DNA from: Armatimonadota bacterium
GTDB lineage: Bacteria; Armatimonadota; HRBIN16
Length of the DNA: 64,000 nt
Assembly: GCA_026003195.1 (NCBI GenBank)
Contig: BPGU01000002.1
Coordinates: 434,001 to 498,000, forward strand
Reading direction: 5' to 3'
This document shows, in pieces, positions 18,691-24,733 of the stretch (the first letter of the stretch is position 1; each line of letters begins with the position of its first letter). The position numbers and the translations under genes are program-made. The notes under the pieces are model-generated. The model was not told the origin of the DNA. It did no database searches and saw only the letters and a program-made list of their open reading frames with translations.

Positions 18691-19575
18691 ATGACTTTTC
18701 TCGCACAACAGCTTTTGTGGGGAGCAGTGCTCCCCGCTATGATCACCTTGCTGGTTCTTGTAGTGAGCTGGCGTGCGTGGCGGCGGGACGGGGGAAGCTC
18801 GCACTGGGCAACCCCGCTCGCCCTCGCGGTGGGATATCTTTTCGCTCACTGGCGCATCGTCGGCTTACCGCTCAGCTTTCCACCTGTGGACTCGAACGAG
18901 TGGCTCTTCGTGGTGGCTATAGTGGCGGCGGTGTGGGGCGTCGTCGAGCATTTCGCCATGAAACGGGTTCTGCTACTCAGCGCGATACGAGCTCTGCTGA
19001 TTGCGGTGCTCTCCTGGTTCGTTCTGCGTCCGCTGATGGGCAACGTGTGGAAGGGAGCGTCGGCATACATCTGGTGGCTGTCGCTGGCGGCTGGCTGGTG
19101 GTTGTGGTGGAACCTGCAGGCGCGAGTAGCGGCGAAGATGCCTGGGATACCGGTGCCACTGGTGCTGTCCATGGTAGCAGGAGGGGGAGGACTGGTGCTG
19201 TTATGGTCCAACAGCTCGTCGCTCTCCCAGCTGAGTGGGGCGATTGCGGCGGTGACGGGAGTGCTGGTTCCCCTCGTGTTCTGGCGACGAGAAGGCAACA
19301 TGGGAACAGGAGGCATCGCCTTCGTTGCTGGTGTGCTCGGGCTCGTCTGGGTGAACGCCATCGCTTTTGTGCCCGTCCCGATATGGCGTATCGCTGTGCT
19401 GGCGCTGGCTTCGCTGACACCTCTGTTCGCAAACGCGCTGCCCCCGGGCTGGAGGCAGAAGACCATATGGGTTACCGTAGCCGTCAGTGTCTTCCTGACC
19501 GCCGTGCTGCTGGCGGGAGTGATGCTCCCCACTTATCGCGCTTATGTGGCATCAGCCACGACGTACGGCTACTAG
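18691..19575 (+). CDS. Hypothetical multi-pass membrane protein
   Basis: 294 residues with about eight or nine hydrophobic segments (for example AVLPAMITLLVLVVSW, WLFVVAIVAAVWGVV, LLIAVLSWFVL, LVLSMVAGGGGLVLLW, IWVTVAVSVFLTAVLLAGVML). No family motif was recognised. It follows yceI by 12 bp and is the likely third gene of the arsR operon. The start ATG at 18691 has GAGAAGCGG upstream, a weak site, consistent with coupling to yceI translation. Confidence 0.75.
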   Translation: MTFLAQQLLWGAVLPAMITLLVLVVSWRAWRRDGGSSHWATPLALAVGYLFAHWRIVGLPLSFPPVDSNEWLFVVAIVAAVWGVVEHFAMKRVLLLSAIRALLIAVLSWFVLRPLMGNVWKGASAYIWWLSLAAGWWLWWNLQARVAAKMPGIPVPLVLSMVAGGGGLVLLWSNSSSLSQLSGAIAAVTGVLVPLVFWRREGNMGTGGIAFVAGVLGLVWVNAIAFVPVPIWRIAVLALASLTPLFANALPPGWRQKTIWVTVAVSVFLTAVLLAGVMLPTYRAYVASATTYGY

Positions 19576-19675
19576 GACGCAAGGCGTTCGGCAGGCAGGT
19601 CTACAGGGGATACCCGACGAAGAAGGAAACCAGAGGTTGTTTTCCCAAATCACTGCCTGTCAGGAGGAAAATTTC

Positions 19676-20761
19676 ATGCAACCGCTAACCAGTGTAGAGC
19701 GTATACACCGTATTCTGAAGCGCCAGCCAGTAGACCGCATTGGTGTTTTCGAGCACTTCTGGGGCGATACCTACAAGAGCTGGCTGGAAGGGGGCTACAT
19801 CCGGGAGGGAGAAAACCTCGCCGACCATTTCGGCTACGATTTGGAACTCTGCTGGCCCTTCAACATGGTCGCTGACCTGGACTACGTGCCGGAAGTGGTG
19901 GAAGAAACCGAAGAGACCATTCTCGTGCGAGATGGAAACGGAGCGTTACTTCGCCGCCACAAACTGCACGACTCCACCCCGGAACATGTGGACTTTCTGG
20001 TGAAAGACCGTCGCGCCTGGGAGGAACATATCAAACCGAAGCTGACGCCAGACCGCCGACGTATTCACTTCGAAGCGTACCGCAACACGCGCCGCTACGC
20101 GCAGGAGAAAGGGCGATTCTTCTGCTGGTCAGGGGTAAACGTGTTCGAGCTGATGCACCCCGTGTGCGGTCACGAATACATGCTGATGGGCATGATCGAC
20201 GACCCCGACTGGGTGAAAGATATGGTCCACACCTACGCCGACCTGACCATCCATCTCATGGAAATCCTGTTCGCCGAGGAGGGACTACCCGACGGCATCT
20301 GGTTCTATGAGGACATGGGCTTCAAAGGGCGCCCGTTCATGTCGCCCGCGATGTATAAAGAAATCGTGCAGCCGGGGCATATCAAGACCATCCAATTTGC
20401 CAAGAGCCTGGGGTTGCTAGTGATTATGCACTCCTGTGGCTACGTCGAGCCGCTGGTGCCGGGCATGATCGAGGCGGGCATCGACTGTCTGCAGGTGATT
20501 GAAGTCAAAGCGGGTATGGACCTGGTACGTCTGTACCACAACTTCGGTGACCGGCTCTCCTTCATGGGCGGTATCGATGTGCGCGTGCTGTACTCCAACG
20601 ACAAGCGCAAAATAGACGCCGAGCTGGAGGCGAAAATCCCCATCGTCAAGGGCAACTACGGCTACGTCCTGCACAGCGACCACTCCATCCCCAATACCGT
20701 GCACTACGAGACCTATCGCTACTTTATACAACGGGGACTGGAGCTGGGAACGTACGACTAG
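19676..20761 (+). CDS. Uroporphyrinogen decarboxylase (URO-D) family protein
   Basis: 361 residues from ATG at 19676, just after CAGGAGGAAAATTTC. It opens with TSVERIHRILKRQPVDRIGVFE, typical of URO-D-like enzymes, and carries FYEDMGFKGRPFMSPAMYKEIVQP, the HSCGYVEPLVPGMIEAG zinc-ligand-like segment and SFMGGIDVR. It lacks the context of haem synthesis genes. Relatives of this type are methyltransferases (MtaA/CmuA-like) or enzymes of unknown substrate that cluster with sugar catabolism. The true HemE is expected elsewhere in the genome. No terminator was seen; 112 bp separate it from the convergent dehydrogenase gene. Confidence 0.88.
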   Translation: MQPLTSVERIHRILKRQPVDRIGVFEHFWGDTYKSWLEGGYIREGENLADHFGYDLELCWPFNMVADLDYVPEVVEETEETILVRDGNGALLRRHKLHDSTPEHVDFLVKDRRAWEEHIKPKLTPDRRRIHFEAYRNTRRYAQEKGRFFCWSGVNVFELMHPVCGHEYMLMGMIDDPDWVKDMVHTYADLTIHLMEILFAEEGLPDGIWFYEDMGFKGRPFMSPAMYKEIVQPGHIKTIQFAKSLGLLVIMHSCGYVEPLVPGMIEAGIDCLQVIEVKAGMDLVRLYHNFGDRLSFMGGIDVRVLYSNDKRKIDAELEAKIPIVKGNYGYVLHSDHSIPNTVHYETYRYFIQRGLELGTYD

Positions 20762-20873
20762 AGGGTAACTGGTACACGCTCAAAGGCTCTCTGGCTGCAA
20801 CCAGTGCGACTGCGACAACGCTTTTCGAAAAAGCCCGATGCTGTTCACTGGTGCGCGGAGGCATCTGTGAACC

Positions 20874-21728
20874 TTATCGCCCCGGTCCGTGCTGCTGGCG
20901 GTTTATCCTCCTCCAGTAGGTGACGATGCCCGGTTGCGTCCAGTCAGGCTCACCGAGATGCTTGACCGCTTTGAACACCTCATGCACGACACCTGTCAAC
21001 GGAACAGCGGTCTCGTGCTCATGCGCGAGTTCGAGAATATAACCCAGGTCCTTGTAGTGCAGCACCAGTTGCCCGCTCCCGGCGAAGTCGTCGCCCAGCA
21101 CGCTGTCGGGAATGGGCAACTCCAGCACATCGCGTATCTGCTCGGGCTCCAGTCCGATGCCGCGAGCGAACTCCGCCGCCTCACACCACACCGCCAGCTG
21201 ACACGCCCCGATGAGCTGGTTCACCGCCTTCAGCCGTTGTCCCATGCCCGCCTGACCCACATGAACTACCTTATAGGCGAAGGCTTCCAGTATCGGCATT
21301 GCCCGCTCAACGTGTTCGGGATCACCTCCCGTCATCACGATAAGCCCCTGTGCGCGCCACGTGACGGGAGCGTCTATCCATGCAGCGCCGCGTTGTGCGC
21401 ATCGTTGAGCCATGTCTTCATCCAGATGGGGATGTGTGGTACTGGTGTTCACTATCAGGTGTTCGGGGCGCAACGCCGCAAAGACGCCATCCTCTTTCTC
21501 CATGACCGCTCGCACTTCACGATTGCCAGGCACCGCCAGCAAGATGACGTCGCAGGATTCCGCTATCTCCCTGGGATTGCCTGCGATGGCTGCGCCCTGC
21601 TCCTGCGCCCACGCGAGGCGCTCGGTGTCTAAGTCCAGCGCATACACCCTGTACCCTGCCTGAAGCAGGTGTTGCAGGTAGTGCTTGCCCATCATGCCCA
21701 GTCCAATGACGCCGATGTGCCCGGTCAT
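20874..21728 (-). CDS. NAD(P)-dependent 3-hydroxyisobutyrate-type dehydrogenase
   Basis: 284 residues. The Rossmann motif IGVIGLGMMGKHYLQHL is at ~5-21. DAPVTWRAQGLIVMTGGD is the substrate loop (normally DAPVSGG), and GAGQ-like GQAGMGQRLKAVNQLI carries the catalytic lysine (K in RLKAVNQ). The family includes tartronate semialdehyde reductase and 3-hydroxyisobutyrate dehydrogenase, acting on short beta-hydroxy acids. The altered substrate loop suggests an unusual substrate. It is third in an operon after two glycosidase genes (16 bp downstream), with AGGAGG before the ATG. Confidence 0.88.
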   Translation of the reverse strand: MTGHIGVIGLGMMGKHYLQHLLQAGYRVYALDLDTERLAWAQEQGAAIAGNPREIAESCDVILLAVPGNREVRAVMEKEDGVFAALRPEHLIVNTSTTHPHLDEDMAQRCAQRGAAWIDAPVTWRAQGLIVMTGGDPEHVERAMPILEAFAYKVVHVGQAGMGQRLKAVNQLIGACQLAVWCEAAEFARGIGLEPEQIRDVLELPIPDSVLGDDFAGSGQLVLHYKDLGYILELAHEHETAVPLTGVVHEVFKAVKHLGEPDWTQPGIVTYWRRINRQQHGPGR

Positions 21729-21744
21729 TGCTATACCTCCTGAC

Positions 21745-23058
21745 CTAATGCGCCGTCACCACCATCACAGCCTGTCCCTCAAACGGCGGTCTCAGGGAGT
21801 GCTGCATCCCGCCCTCTACCGACGGAGCGGGCTGGCTCGTACCCTCTACGGGGTGTATCCACTGTACCCTGAACGTACCCTTCGCCCCGGAAAGGTCTAT
21901 GCTTACCTCGCCGCCCTCAGGAAGATAGACAACGTACTGTTTGCCCGGCACCGCAAGGCAGTAACGGGTAGACGCCAGCTCCGGCAAGGGCAACGCCTCC
22001 ACGAGGTTCAGCTTCGCAGCCACCTGTCGCGTGACGCCCATCGCTTTACGAATGGGCTCCGCGCCGGGGATATCTCCGTCCTTGCGCCCCGCCCACGTGA
22101 CCACGCGCCGGTTCAGTTCCGCTATCCTGTCCATGAACAGAGGATGATGTCCGCGCGTAAAGGTCTTCCATACCCATTGTGGGTTGCCTCCTTCCCCCCA
22201 CAGGTGGTCGGTGTCGTTCAACACCACTTTGCGCCCGTCGTTCACCGGAGGGTCATCACGATAGCCGCCCTCGGGATTGGGGGAAATCCAGTCCGCGGGG
22301 CTGCTGAACAGGTTCGCGTTACTGCCGCTACGCTCGCCGCCGAACTGGAAGGTCATCCCAACGAGGTGTTGCTTGCGCTTTTTCTTCTCGTACTCCTTCA
22401 CGAAACGGATGATATGGTACTGCCACTCGGTAGAGTAGTTGCCTGCCTCGTTGGACACCTCGTACAGCACGTTGTTGCAGGAGTTGATCGTATCCACCAC
22501 CTGGCGCACGTATGCCTCCTGCAACGCGAGCACCTGAGGGTTCTTCAGAGTGTAGTAATCCAGGCGTCCGGCGTCGATGCCGTTGATGTTGTTCTCCGGG
22601 TGGAAGGGGTGGTATTGCCAGCCCTCTTCCGCGAACTGCAGACAGTGTCCTTCGAAGAGCATCACCGAGACGTAAATACCCCGCTTCTCCGCCGCCTCTA
22701 CACGCTGACGTAGACGCCGGAAGTAGACATCATTCCACTTTGTCAGGTCGAACTTCGGCTTCCCGTCTCGTGCCATGCCCGGTCCCGTTCGTGCCCAGGG
22801 ATGGGGGTCGCACAAACTATCCCCCTGCCCGCCGTAGCGCCACCTCGGCACTTCCCAGCGCCAGAGCCGAATGAAGTTGTGGTTGTGTCTCTGCAGGAAA
22901 TCCAGGTAGGCATCGAAATCGAACGGAGCCGGTGGTTCGGACATGCCCATGTCCTGCAGGTTGCTCCACGTGTGGGAACCGGTCACGTAGATGGCGCGCT
23001 TGCCGTCATCGGTAAAGTAACGCGGGTTCCTCGGATGTACTCGCAAAGGCGCTTTCAT
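21745..23058 (-). CDS. Glycosidase-like TIM-barrel protein (DUF6298-type)
   Basis: 437 residues, no signal peptide. It starts with a small strand region (RYFTDDGKRAIYVTGSHTW) seen in DUF4038/GH140-like and related barrels. YLDFLQRHNHNFIRLWRWE and VLYEVSNEAGNYSTEWQ (acid/base candidate E in SNEAG) resemble clan GH-A. A C-terminal beta domain (~350-437) ends the protein. A polysaccharide-directed glycoside hydrolase is likely but the substrate cannot be assigned. GAGGAGG precedes the ATG; it is 11 bp downstream of the GH140-like gene. Confidence 0.7.
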   Translation of the reverse strand: MKAPLRVHPRNPRYFTDDGKRAIYVTGSHTWSNLQDMGMSEPPAPFDFDAYLDFLQRHNHNFIRLWRWEVPRWRYGGQGDSLCDPHPWARTGPGMARDGKPKFDLTKWNDVYFRRLRQRVEAAEKRGIYVSVMLFEGHCLQFAEEGWQYHPFHPENNINGIDAGRLDYYTLKNPQVLALQEAYVRQVVDTINSCNNVLYEVSNEAGNYSTEWQYHIIRFVKEYEKKKRKQHLVGMTFQFGGERSGSNANLFSSPADWISPNPEGGYRDDPPVNDGRKVVLNDTDHLWGEGGNPQWVWKTFTRGHHPLFMDRIAELNRRVVTWAGRKDGDIPGAEPIRKAMGVTRQVAAKLNLVEALPLPELASTRYCLAVPGKQYVVYLPEGGEVSIDLSGAKGTFRVQWIHPVEGTSQPAPSVEGGMQHSLRPPFEGQAVMVVTAH

Positions 23059-23069
23059 AGACGCCTCCT

Positions 23070-24410
23070 CTATGCGCCCGGTTTTCGGTATCGCTTACCG
23101 ACCTCATCCAGCACCAGCACCCAGTCTTCCTCTCGCGATTCACCGCTCGGGGGGGTAAACTCCCTCTCGCCGCGTCGGGCAAACTCCCCAATGAGTTGCG
23201 CCTGACCGTTGCGCGGGTTGAACCACCAGGCACGCACTCTTTTTCCGCTCAGCACATCCATATTCACCACCACCTTTCTGCTAACCGGCAGGTAGAGAAA
23301 GGCATAACTGCCGTCCGCTCCTCGCGCGGCACGGATGTGCCCCCCTCCCTTGCCCGGGTCAGAGGCTATGAGCGACTGATCGGGTATACGCAGCAGGGGC
23401 GGTCGAGACAACATCAACGCCTTCACGTACTGCATTTGTGATGCACCTGGCAGGTGAAGAGCCTCTTTCCATGAAGTACGAGCGTGGGAAACAGGCTGTC
23501 GCTTCTGGGGTTCGTACATCTGCCAGACGTCGTGGCAGCCGTAAGTGTGCCCATGCGCCCCCGCCAGCAGCGCCCAGTAAGCGGCACGACGCACGTCGTG
23601 GTCGTTGAACCAGCCGTTTTTGGGGTCCCAGCCGATGGGGTGGTCTTCGTAGTTCGGTTCCCCATCCATACAGGGTTTGACAGGTTGCAGCCGGTAGTCC
23701 CGCTCAATCATCTCGTAATTGGGTATCGGTCTGGCATGATGTCCCGACTGCAGCATGTGGAAGTCCAGCCACTCCTCTCTGTGCAACCACTGCGAGCTGG
23801 ACTGTCCGCCCATCGGGTGATAGGTGATCAGGTGTTCTCCACCATCCCCTTTGCGCAAACCTTCTGCCATCGCCCTCCAGATTGCCAGGTGGGTGTCATT
23901 CTCAATTGGACGGTCCCCTCCCAGAATCCAGATGATGGGTTTGCCCCGATAACGCTTGCCCAGGAACTCGCCGTAGACACGGGCGTTTTCAGGAGTGAAA
24001 ATCTCCGGACCAACGCCCCATTTTTTGTTCACCTTATCGCCCCACGTAGGCAACATGCCGATGTATAGCCCCAGTTGCTCTGCCCTGTTCACCACAAAAT
24101 CCACATGGCGGAAATACCCCTCGTTGGGCTGGGTGGGGTCGTTGTGATGCAGAGGGGTATGTCCATAAGCATTGGGCGTGCCGAGACCGTTGAACTCCGC
24201 TAACACAACCGCCTGTATCACCGTGAAACCCTTGCTGGCGCGGTCGTTCAGATAGAGTTCCGCCTCTTCGCGCGTCAAGCGATGAAAGAGCTCCCAGGCG
24301 GTGTCGCCCAGATAGAAGAAGGGCTTTCCTTTTTCGGTCACCAGATAGCGCCCACTACACGGATGAGCAGCATCGCGAAAGACTTTCAGGCGCGGTAGTT
24401 TCGCTGGCAT
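23070..24410 (-). CDS. GH140-like glycoside hydrolase (DUF4038)
   Basis: 446 residues from ATG at 24410. The upstream in-frame ATG at 24443 was rejected because AGGAGG lies between the two. The DUF4038 barrel opens with GKPFFYLGDTAWELFHRLTREEAELYL, followed by GFTVIQAVVLAEFNGL and IIWILGGDRPIEND (acid/base region GGDRP). CMDGEPNYEDHP holds the likely nucleophile glutamate, and AAYWALLAGAHGHTYG follows. A C-terminal beta domain (DUF5060/collagen-binding type) completes it. Characterised GH140 enzymes release apiose from rhamnogalacturonan II. First gene of a three-gene minus-strand operon. Confidence 0.83.
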   Translation of the reverse strand: MPAKLPRLKVFRDAAHPCSGRYLVTEKGKPFFYLGDTAWELFHRLTREEAELYLNDRASKGFTVIQAVVLAEFNGLGTPNAYGHTPLHHNDPTQPNEGYFRHVDFVVNRAEQLGLYIGMLPTWGDKVNKKWGVGPEIFTPENARVYGEFLGKRYRGKPIIWILGGDRPIENDTHLAIWRAMAEGLRKGDGGEHLITYHPMGGQSSSQWLHREEWLDFHMLQSGHHARPIPNYEMIERDYRLQPVKPCMDGEPNYEDHPIGWDPKNGWFNDHDVRRAAYWALLAGAHGHTYGCHDVWQMYEPQKRQPVSHARTSWKEALHLPGASQMQYVKALMLSRPPLLRIPDQSLIASDPGKGGGHIRAARGADGSYAFLYLPVSRKVVVNMDVLSGKRVRAWWFNPRNGQAQLIGEFARRGEREFTPPSGESREEDWVLVLDEVGKRYRKPGA

Positions 24411-24622
24411 CTCGTCGTGAACCTCCTGATGGTTTCGGTGCAAACCCTGTATCTACTGAGTACGACGCGCCCCAAGCTTAATCCTTCACCCCAAAAGGGA
24501 ATGCGCTGACTTGCCTTTTCACCACCCGGGGCGAGGCTGCTCTCGGTCCGTTCGTACCCTTCACTGGCGTACGAACATTTTTTCAAAAAAGTTTTGAGAG
24601 GCTATCGAAACCTCTGGATTTT
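24411..24622. promoter_or_regulatory. Spacer with GTTCGTAC inverted repeat upstream of the GH140 operon
   Basis: GTTCGTAC (24550-24557) and GTACGAAC (24569-24576) form a perfect 8-bp inverted repeat with an 11-bp spacer, about two helical turns centre to centre, as expected of a LacI/GntR-type operator. A weak copy of the GC-rich repeat lies at ~24523-24548. AGAGG/CCTCT followed by TTTTT near 24597-24622 is a small terminator-like hairpin. No gene was seen here. Confidence 0.4.
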
Positions 24623-24637
24623 TCGTGCAAGATGCTG

Positions 24638-24733
24638 TATAATTTAGATAGGCTAAGCAATACTGGACAATCCTATCGGCAGCACACCCAACTTCCCACA
24701 GGTCGGAGGCAGCACTGACCTGTGGGTTTTTTT
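24638..24733 (+). ncRNA. Putative small RNA or transcription attenuator
   Basis: A perfect TATAAT box (24638-24643) is followed by ~75 nt of non-coding sequence and then a strong terminator: CCCACAGGTC (24695-24704), a 12-nt loop, GACCTGTGGG (24717-24726) and seven T. Inside, GATAGG (24647-24652) can pair with CCTATC (24672-24677), and GGCAGCAC occurs twice, once before the terminator and once in its loop. It may be a free ~80-nt RNA, or a leader that controls the DUF2339 gene starting 190 bp downstream. Between 24734 and 24922 nothing else was recognised except a short match to 62402-62422. Confidence 0.55.

Follow-up and report, generated by a model that had tools for sequence, protein, structure and literature searches.

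Organisation of the locus

The window, i.e., the whole stretch of 64,000 nucleotides analysed here, carries a compact 96-base unit in which a TATAAT box, a leader and a hairpin followed by a run of T succeed one another (Table 1). An earlier examination of the same DNA without database searches (hereafter the sequence-only reading) had described these parts and placed a DUF2339 gene 190 bp downstream. The gene (PF10101) indeed begins ~190 bp downstream, most likely at ATG 24923, with GTG 24896 as a possible start, and the divergent neighbour on the other side of the unit is an apiosidase gene.

Table 1. Features of the candidate small-RNA gene in the window (nine-genome values where identity or invariance is given).
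Feature	Position	Strand	Remarks
A/T-tract upstream element (TTTTTT..GAAAAATTTT type)	24575..24595	+	UP-element-like; UP function putative
-35 element TGGATT	24615..24620	+	17 bp from the -10 element; 82% mean identity
-10 element TATAAT	24638..24643	+	same in 9/9 genomes, 100% identity
TTAG-N5-CTAA imperfect palindrome	24644..24656	+	spans the expected transcription start near 24650
Predicted sRNA transcript, ~83 nt	24650..24733	+	start predicted from the -10 element, end set by the terminator
Leader TAAGCA-N-TACTGGACAATCCTAT-M-GGCAGCACACCCAACTT	24654..24694	+	invariant, unpaired; 96% mean identity
GGCAGCAC copy 1, in the leader	24678..24685	+	invariant in nine genomes
Terminator hairpin CCCACAGGTCGG / CTGACCTGTGGG, loop AGGCAGCA	24695..24726	+	12-bp stem, 8-nt loop
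GGCAGCAC copy 2, terminator loop and first 3'-stem base	24708..24715	+	invariant in nine genomes
T7 terminator tail	24727..24733	+	at least seven uninterrupted T in 9/9 genomes

The -10 element was found where it had been reported. The -35 element is a weak match to TTGACA in the window (3/6); most congeners carry TGGACT or TCGACT at this position and match in 4/6. The A/T tract showed 62% mean identity in the nine-genome alignment, against 27% further upstream. The arms of the palindrome at the expected start were kept in eight of the nine genomes (GU in one) while its centre was variable, and it is possible that the palindrome serves as an operator or as a 5' hairpin of the transcript.

The intrinsic terminator and its seven T stood as described, except that the stem comprises 12 bp (eight of them G-C) instead of the 10 bp given previously. 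The repeat GGCAGCAC, noticed once in the leader and once in the terminator loop, was likewise verified; the two copies might, as the sequence-only reading suggested, compete for a partner. On its own, an 8-nt repeat is weak evidence, as it was equalled in 54 of 2000 shuffles. Ten bases of the hairpin (24705-24714, GGAGGCAGCA) are identical to a conserved segment of 16S rRNA, the 338F primer region; a shared 10-mer is not rare at such length (~0.4 expected by our estimate), and it is absent in the genome G008.

Conservation within the genus

We compared 10 genomes of a single Armatimonadota genus, including that of the window (G000), and the unit was present in nine of them, in single copy each. 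A DNA search detected one copy each in eight of the nine congeners, and a covariance model recovered the same nine genomes (the window's included) with one match each, at E values from 1e-25 to 1e-28. The one genome of the ten with no detectable copy was G003, which is 93% complete. Averaged over the genome pairs of the nine-way alignment, identity was 94-96% over the leader and hairpin and 19-27% in the DNA outside. Little stable structure was predicted for the leader, yet it is near-invariant across ~40 nt: only two positions vary, besides a 2-nt insertion in G008.

The sequence-only reading had proposed a covariance search in related genomes for two stems, and the outcome differed between them. 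All 12 pairs of the terminator are formed in all nine genomes (100% of pair cells). One pair is C-G in six genomes and U-A in three, which is compensatory; since a single event may lie behind all three U-A genomes, we count one compensatory change and not three. In addition, one G-U pair is replaced by A-U in G008. The loop copy of GGCAGCAC is unchanged even in that genome, whose neighbouring loop bases differ. The other proposed stem, GATAGG (24647-24652) with CCTATC, has complementary arms in the window genome, but these pairs are not maintained across the genus: we counted 11 broken cells, none compensated, in the nine genomes. We reject it because every change breaks a pair and because half of the stem lies upstream of the likely start: the start expected near 24650 from the -10 position falls inside GATAGG.

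We scanned 1.98 Mb of the genome for a TATAAT with a terminator in the next 260 nt, requiring six T and a stem of 8 bp or more, and only two places qualified. The place other than the unit, a leader that resembles the Mn2+ (yybP-ykoY) riboswitch and likewise has a TATAAT and a terminator of its own, is on contig C2 at position 374722 of G000 (locus L144, 14728-14934). It lies upstream of a probable htpX-like gene, encoding a predicted membrane protein, and scored 29.7 bits, under the Rfam gathering score of 45. In our view, the 96 bases very probably form a genuine gene for a small RNA, equipped with a promoter and a terminator of its own.

Genomic neighbourhood

In seven of the nine genomes bearing the RNA, DUF2339 follows it in the same orientation, within ~70-190 bp. 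The linkage is lost in the other two. In G006, the RNA is flanked by an MFS gene (divergent) and an M16 peptidase gene (convergent), and DUF2339 is on another contig, adjoining a methionine-synthase-like gene. In G008, a PhyH gene precedes the RNA, an FGGY kinase gene in convergent orientation is the first one identified beyond it, and a search of the genome for DUF2339 found none. G003 presents the reverse situation: DUF2339 is present, its contig (C132, locus L030) ends ~220 bp upstream of the gene, and no RNA was found in the 220 bp visible or, with the covariance model, elsewhere in the genome. In G004 (C321:14411-15925), the DUF2339 gene appears to be shortened, with an internal stretch missing compared to the protein of the window.

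The divergent gene beside the RNA is URO-D in five congeners (G005, G009, G007, G002 and G004), whereas in the window URO-D is found at 19544-20761. The region 19544-24443 is thus rearranged relative to the congeners, swapping the gene divergent to the sRNA. This indicates that one end of the rearrangement coincides with the border of the RNA gene, which itself came through intact. The congener genomes are MAGs, the contigs of which can be chimeric; nevertheless, two different relocations together with one absence speak against chimerism as the cause of the whole pattern, which we regard as unlikely. The gene order across the genus is that of an independent gene with DUF2339 as its usual neighbour.

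Alternative interpretations

The sequence-only reading had left two options, a free RNA of ~80 nt or a leader regulating DUF2339. Under the latter, the unit would be a cis-acting attenuator of this membrane-protein gene, in which transcription would stop at the hairpin except when a signal permits readthrough. The close same-strand spacing in the seven linked genomes is what would be expected of such a leader. We nevertheless consider an attenuator highly improbable and reject it because of the synteny: the relocated copies in G006 and G008, where the first gene identified downstream points towards the RNA, argue strongly against it, and in G003 DUF2339 goes without the RNA in the visible upstream sequence. 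Neither is there a conserved antiterminator pairing, as the sole conserved hairpin is the terminator itself, and the DNA between the terminator and DUF2339 is poorly conserved. The free RNA, for which both the conserved promoter and terminator and the loci unlinked to DUF2339 speak, is well supported and is the option that we retain.

Such an RNA might act by titrating a protein, either as a CsrA sponge or by using the two GGCAGCAC copies to hold a different RNA-binding protein. Most of the genus genomes searched carry csrA, and the unit offers two GGA triplets and a repeated 8-mer with one copy in a hairpin loop. CsrB/RsmZ-type RNAs, however, carry many CsrA sites in the form of multiple conserved GGA in loops. 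Here, only the ACUGGACA triplet is invariant, that of the loop being lost in G008 (AGCGG), which leaves a single site, a small number for a sponge. This single invariant GGA makes a CsrA sponge less likely, and a decoy role in general seems to us improbable. A further explanation would make the unit no RNA gene at all but either an element conserved as DNA or the gene for a small peptide. The extreme sequence conservation and the short palindrome at the start site could be read in that way. On the other hand, the compensatory change in the terminator stem, the T-run kept at seven or more and the strand-specific order of promoter and then terminator all point to RNA. As for a peptide, the core has no ATG, no open frame is conserved in it across the nine genomes, and the 2-nt insertion in G008, which lies within the core, would shift any frame. 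We find this last explanation hardly credible.

Proposed function and target searches

We favour the view that the unit is an autonomous gene whose product is a regulatory sRNA of ~83 nt acting in trans, most likely by pairing with mRNAs with the assistance of Hfq, and give this reading a probability of roughly 0.7. Hfq-assisted base-pairing is preferred because of (i) the anatomy of the unit, (ii) the tail of at least seven U, (iii) hfq, detected (PF17209 over the cut-off) in all nine genus genomes searched, and (iv) the single invariant GGA. The terminators of Hfq-binding sRNAs in Escherichia coli carry seven or more T (PMC5558911), and, given such a tail and the presence of hfq, the RNA probably binds Hfq.

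In the mechanism that we propose, a sigma-70-type promoter (TGGATT-17-TATAAT, preceded by the A/T tract) would direct RNA polymerase to start near 24650, and the hairpin and T7 (24695-24733) would stop it. The product would consist of a mostly unpaired, invariant leader of ~40 nt, a stable terminator hairpin and a U-tail end, the last of which would be bound by Hfq. The leader, likely the base-pairing region of the sRNA, would then pair with several mRNAs and change their translation or decay; TACTGGACAATCCTAT or GGCAGCACACCC are the candidate target-pairing segments, and the loop copy of GGCAGCAC would perhaps make a second contact with the mRNAs. Both the transcription and the mRNA pairing are predictions made from the sequence. 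We also entertain, with considerable doubt, the idea of a genus-wide core riboregulator, in which the unusually long invariant pairing region and the duplicated GGCAGCA, one copy being in the terminator loop, engage mRNAs outside the Shine-Dalgarno sequence or hold an RNA-binding protein.

The target searches yielded no convincing candidate. Degenerate antisense patterns searched in the ten genomes revealed no conserved target on the mRNA strands. Two recurrent antisense matches, to the codons for NYPNNPTG of aminotransferases and for GLDKPTSG of ABC transporters, were discarded as they lie on the wrong (non-coding) strand. The leader was also compared by duplex energy with 1650 predicted translation-start regions, covering 44% of the genome; genes and starts were picked by simple rules, so that some start sites will be wrong. 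The energies stayed inside the range given by shuffled leaders, apart from one top start-region match that beats all 20 shuffles but has a doubtful reading frame. Pairing with the starts of DUF2339 and the apiosidase gene was no better than that of shuffled leaders, and pairing with the URO-D start was marginal (5/100 shuffles). An antisense action on rRNA was also considered and dismissed, the complementarity to 16S and 23S rRNA being within the shuffled range.

Comparison with known systems

The candidate resembles the Hfq-dependent trans-encoded sRNAs of enterobacteria (SgrS, RyhB, RydC type) in being a free-standing gene with a short unpaired region and an intrinsic terminator that runs into seven or more T (PMC5558911), in a genome that contains hfq. 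As an independent transcription unit, it is not tied to one neighbour, having been relocated in G006 and G008 and having exchanged a neighbour in G000. It differs from the enterobacterial RNAs in that no sequence similarity is seen, the phylum is another one, and Hfq binding and mRNA pairing are here predictions. RsaE/RoxS of Firmicutes are also short terminated sRNAs with a repeated candidate pairing motif. Those RNAs have several C-rich regions (PMC4409812), whereas the repeated motif GGCAGCAC is neither C-rich nor anti-Shine-Dalgarno, and no homology was found. Leaders of the Mn2+ (yybP-ykoY) riboswitch share the succession of promoter, short leader and terminator before a membrane-protein gene; unlike them, the unit has no conserved aptamer or alternative pairing and is not fixed to the downstream gene.

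Distribution and implications

The sequence-only reading recognised no known RNA family, and this agrees with our search of Rfam 15, which gave no match to the unit in the window, the best chance matches being far below threshold. Among 291 genomes of the phylum, only the nine of this genus were positive with the covariance model. A scan of GTDB contigs with the core pattern yielded six records, none in a recognisable other genus, and the same pattern found nothing in viral contigs. In our literature search we came across no publication on small RNAs of Armatimonadota. The RNA thus constitutes a new family of a well-known kind, one without a catalogued relative.

As a kind of object, the gene is not surprising, and its product is probably an ordinary regulatory RNA. 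It is nonetheless an RNA gene with clear limits, present in single copy and strongly selected, in a lineage of what we take, from isolate names and general knowledge, to be hot-spring organisms, and this lineage has both hfq and csrA. The RNA may therefore be regarded as a concrete first candidate for testing Hfq-type riboregulation in Armatimonadota.
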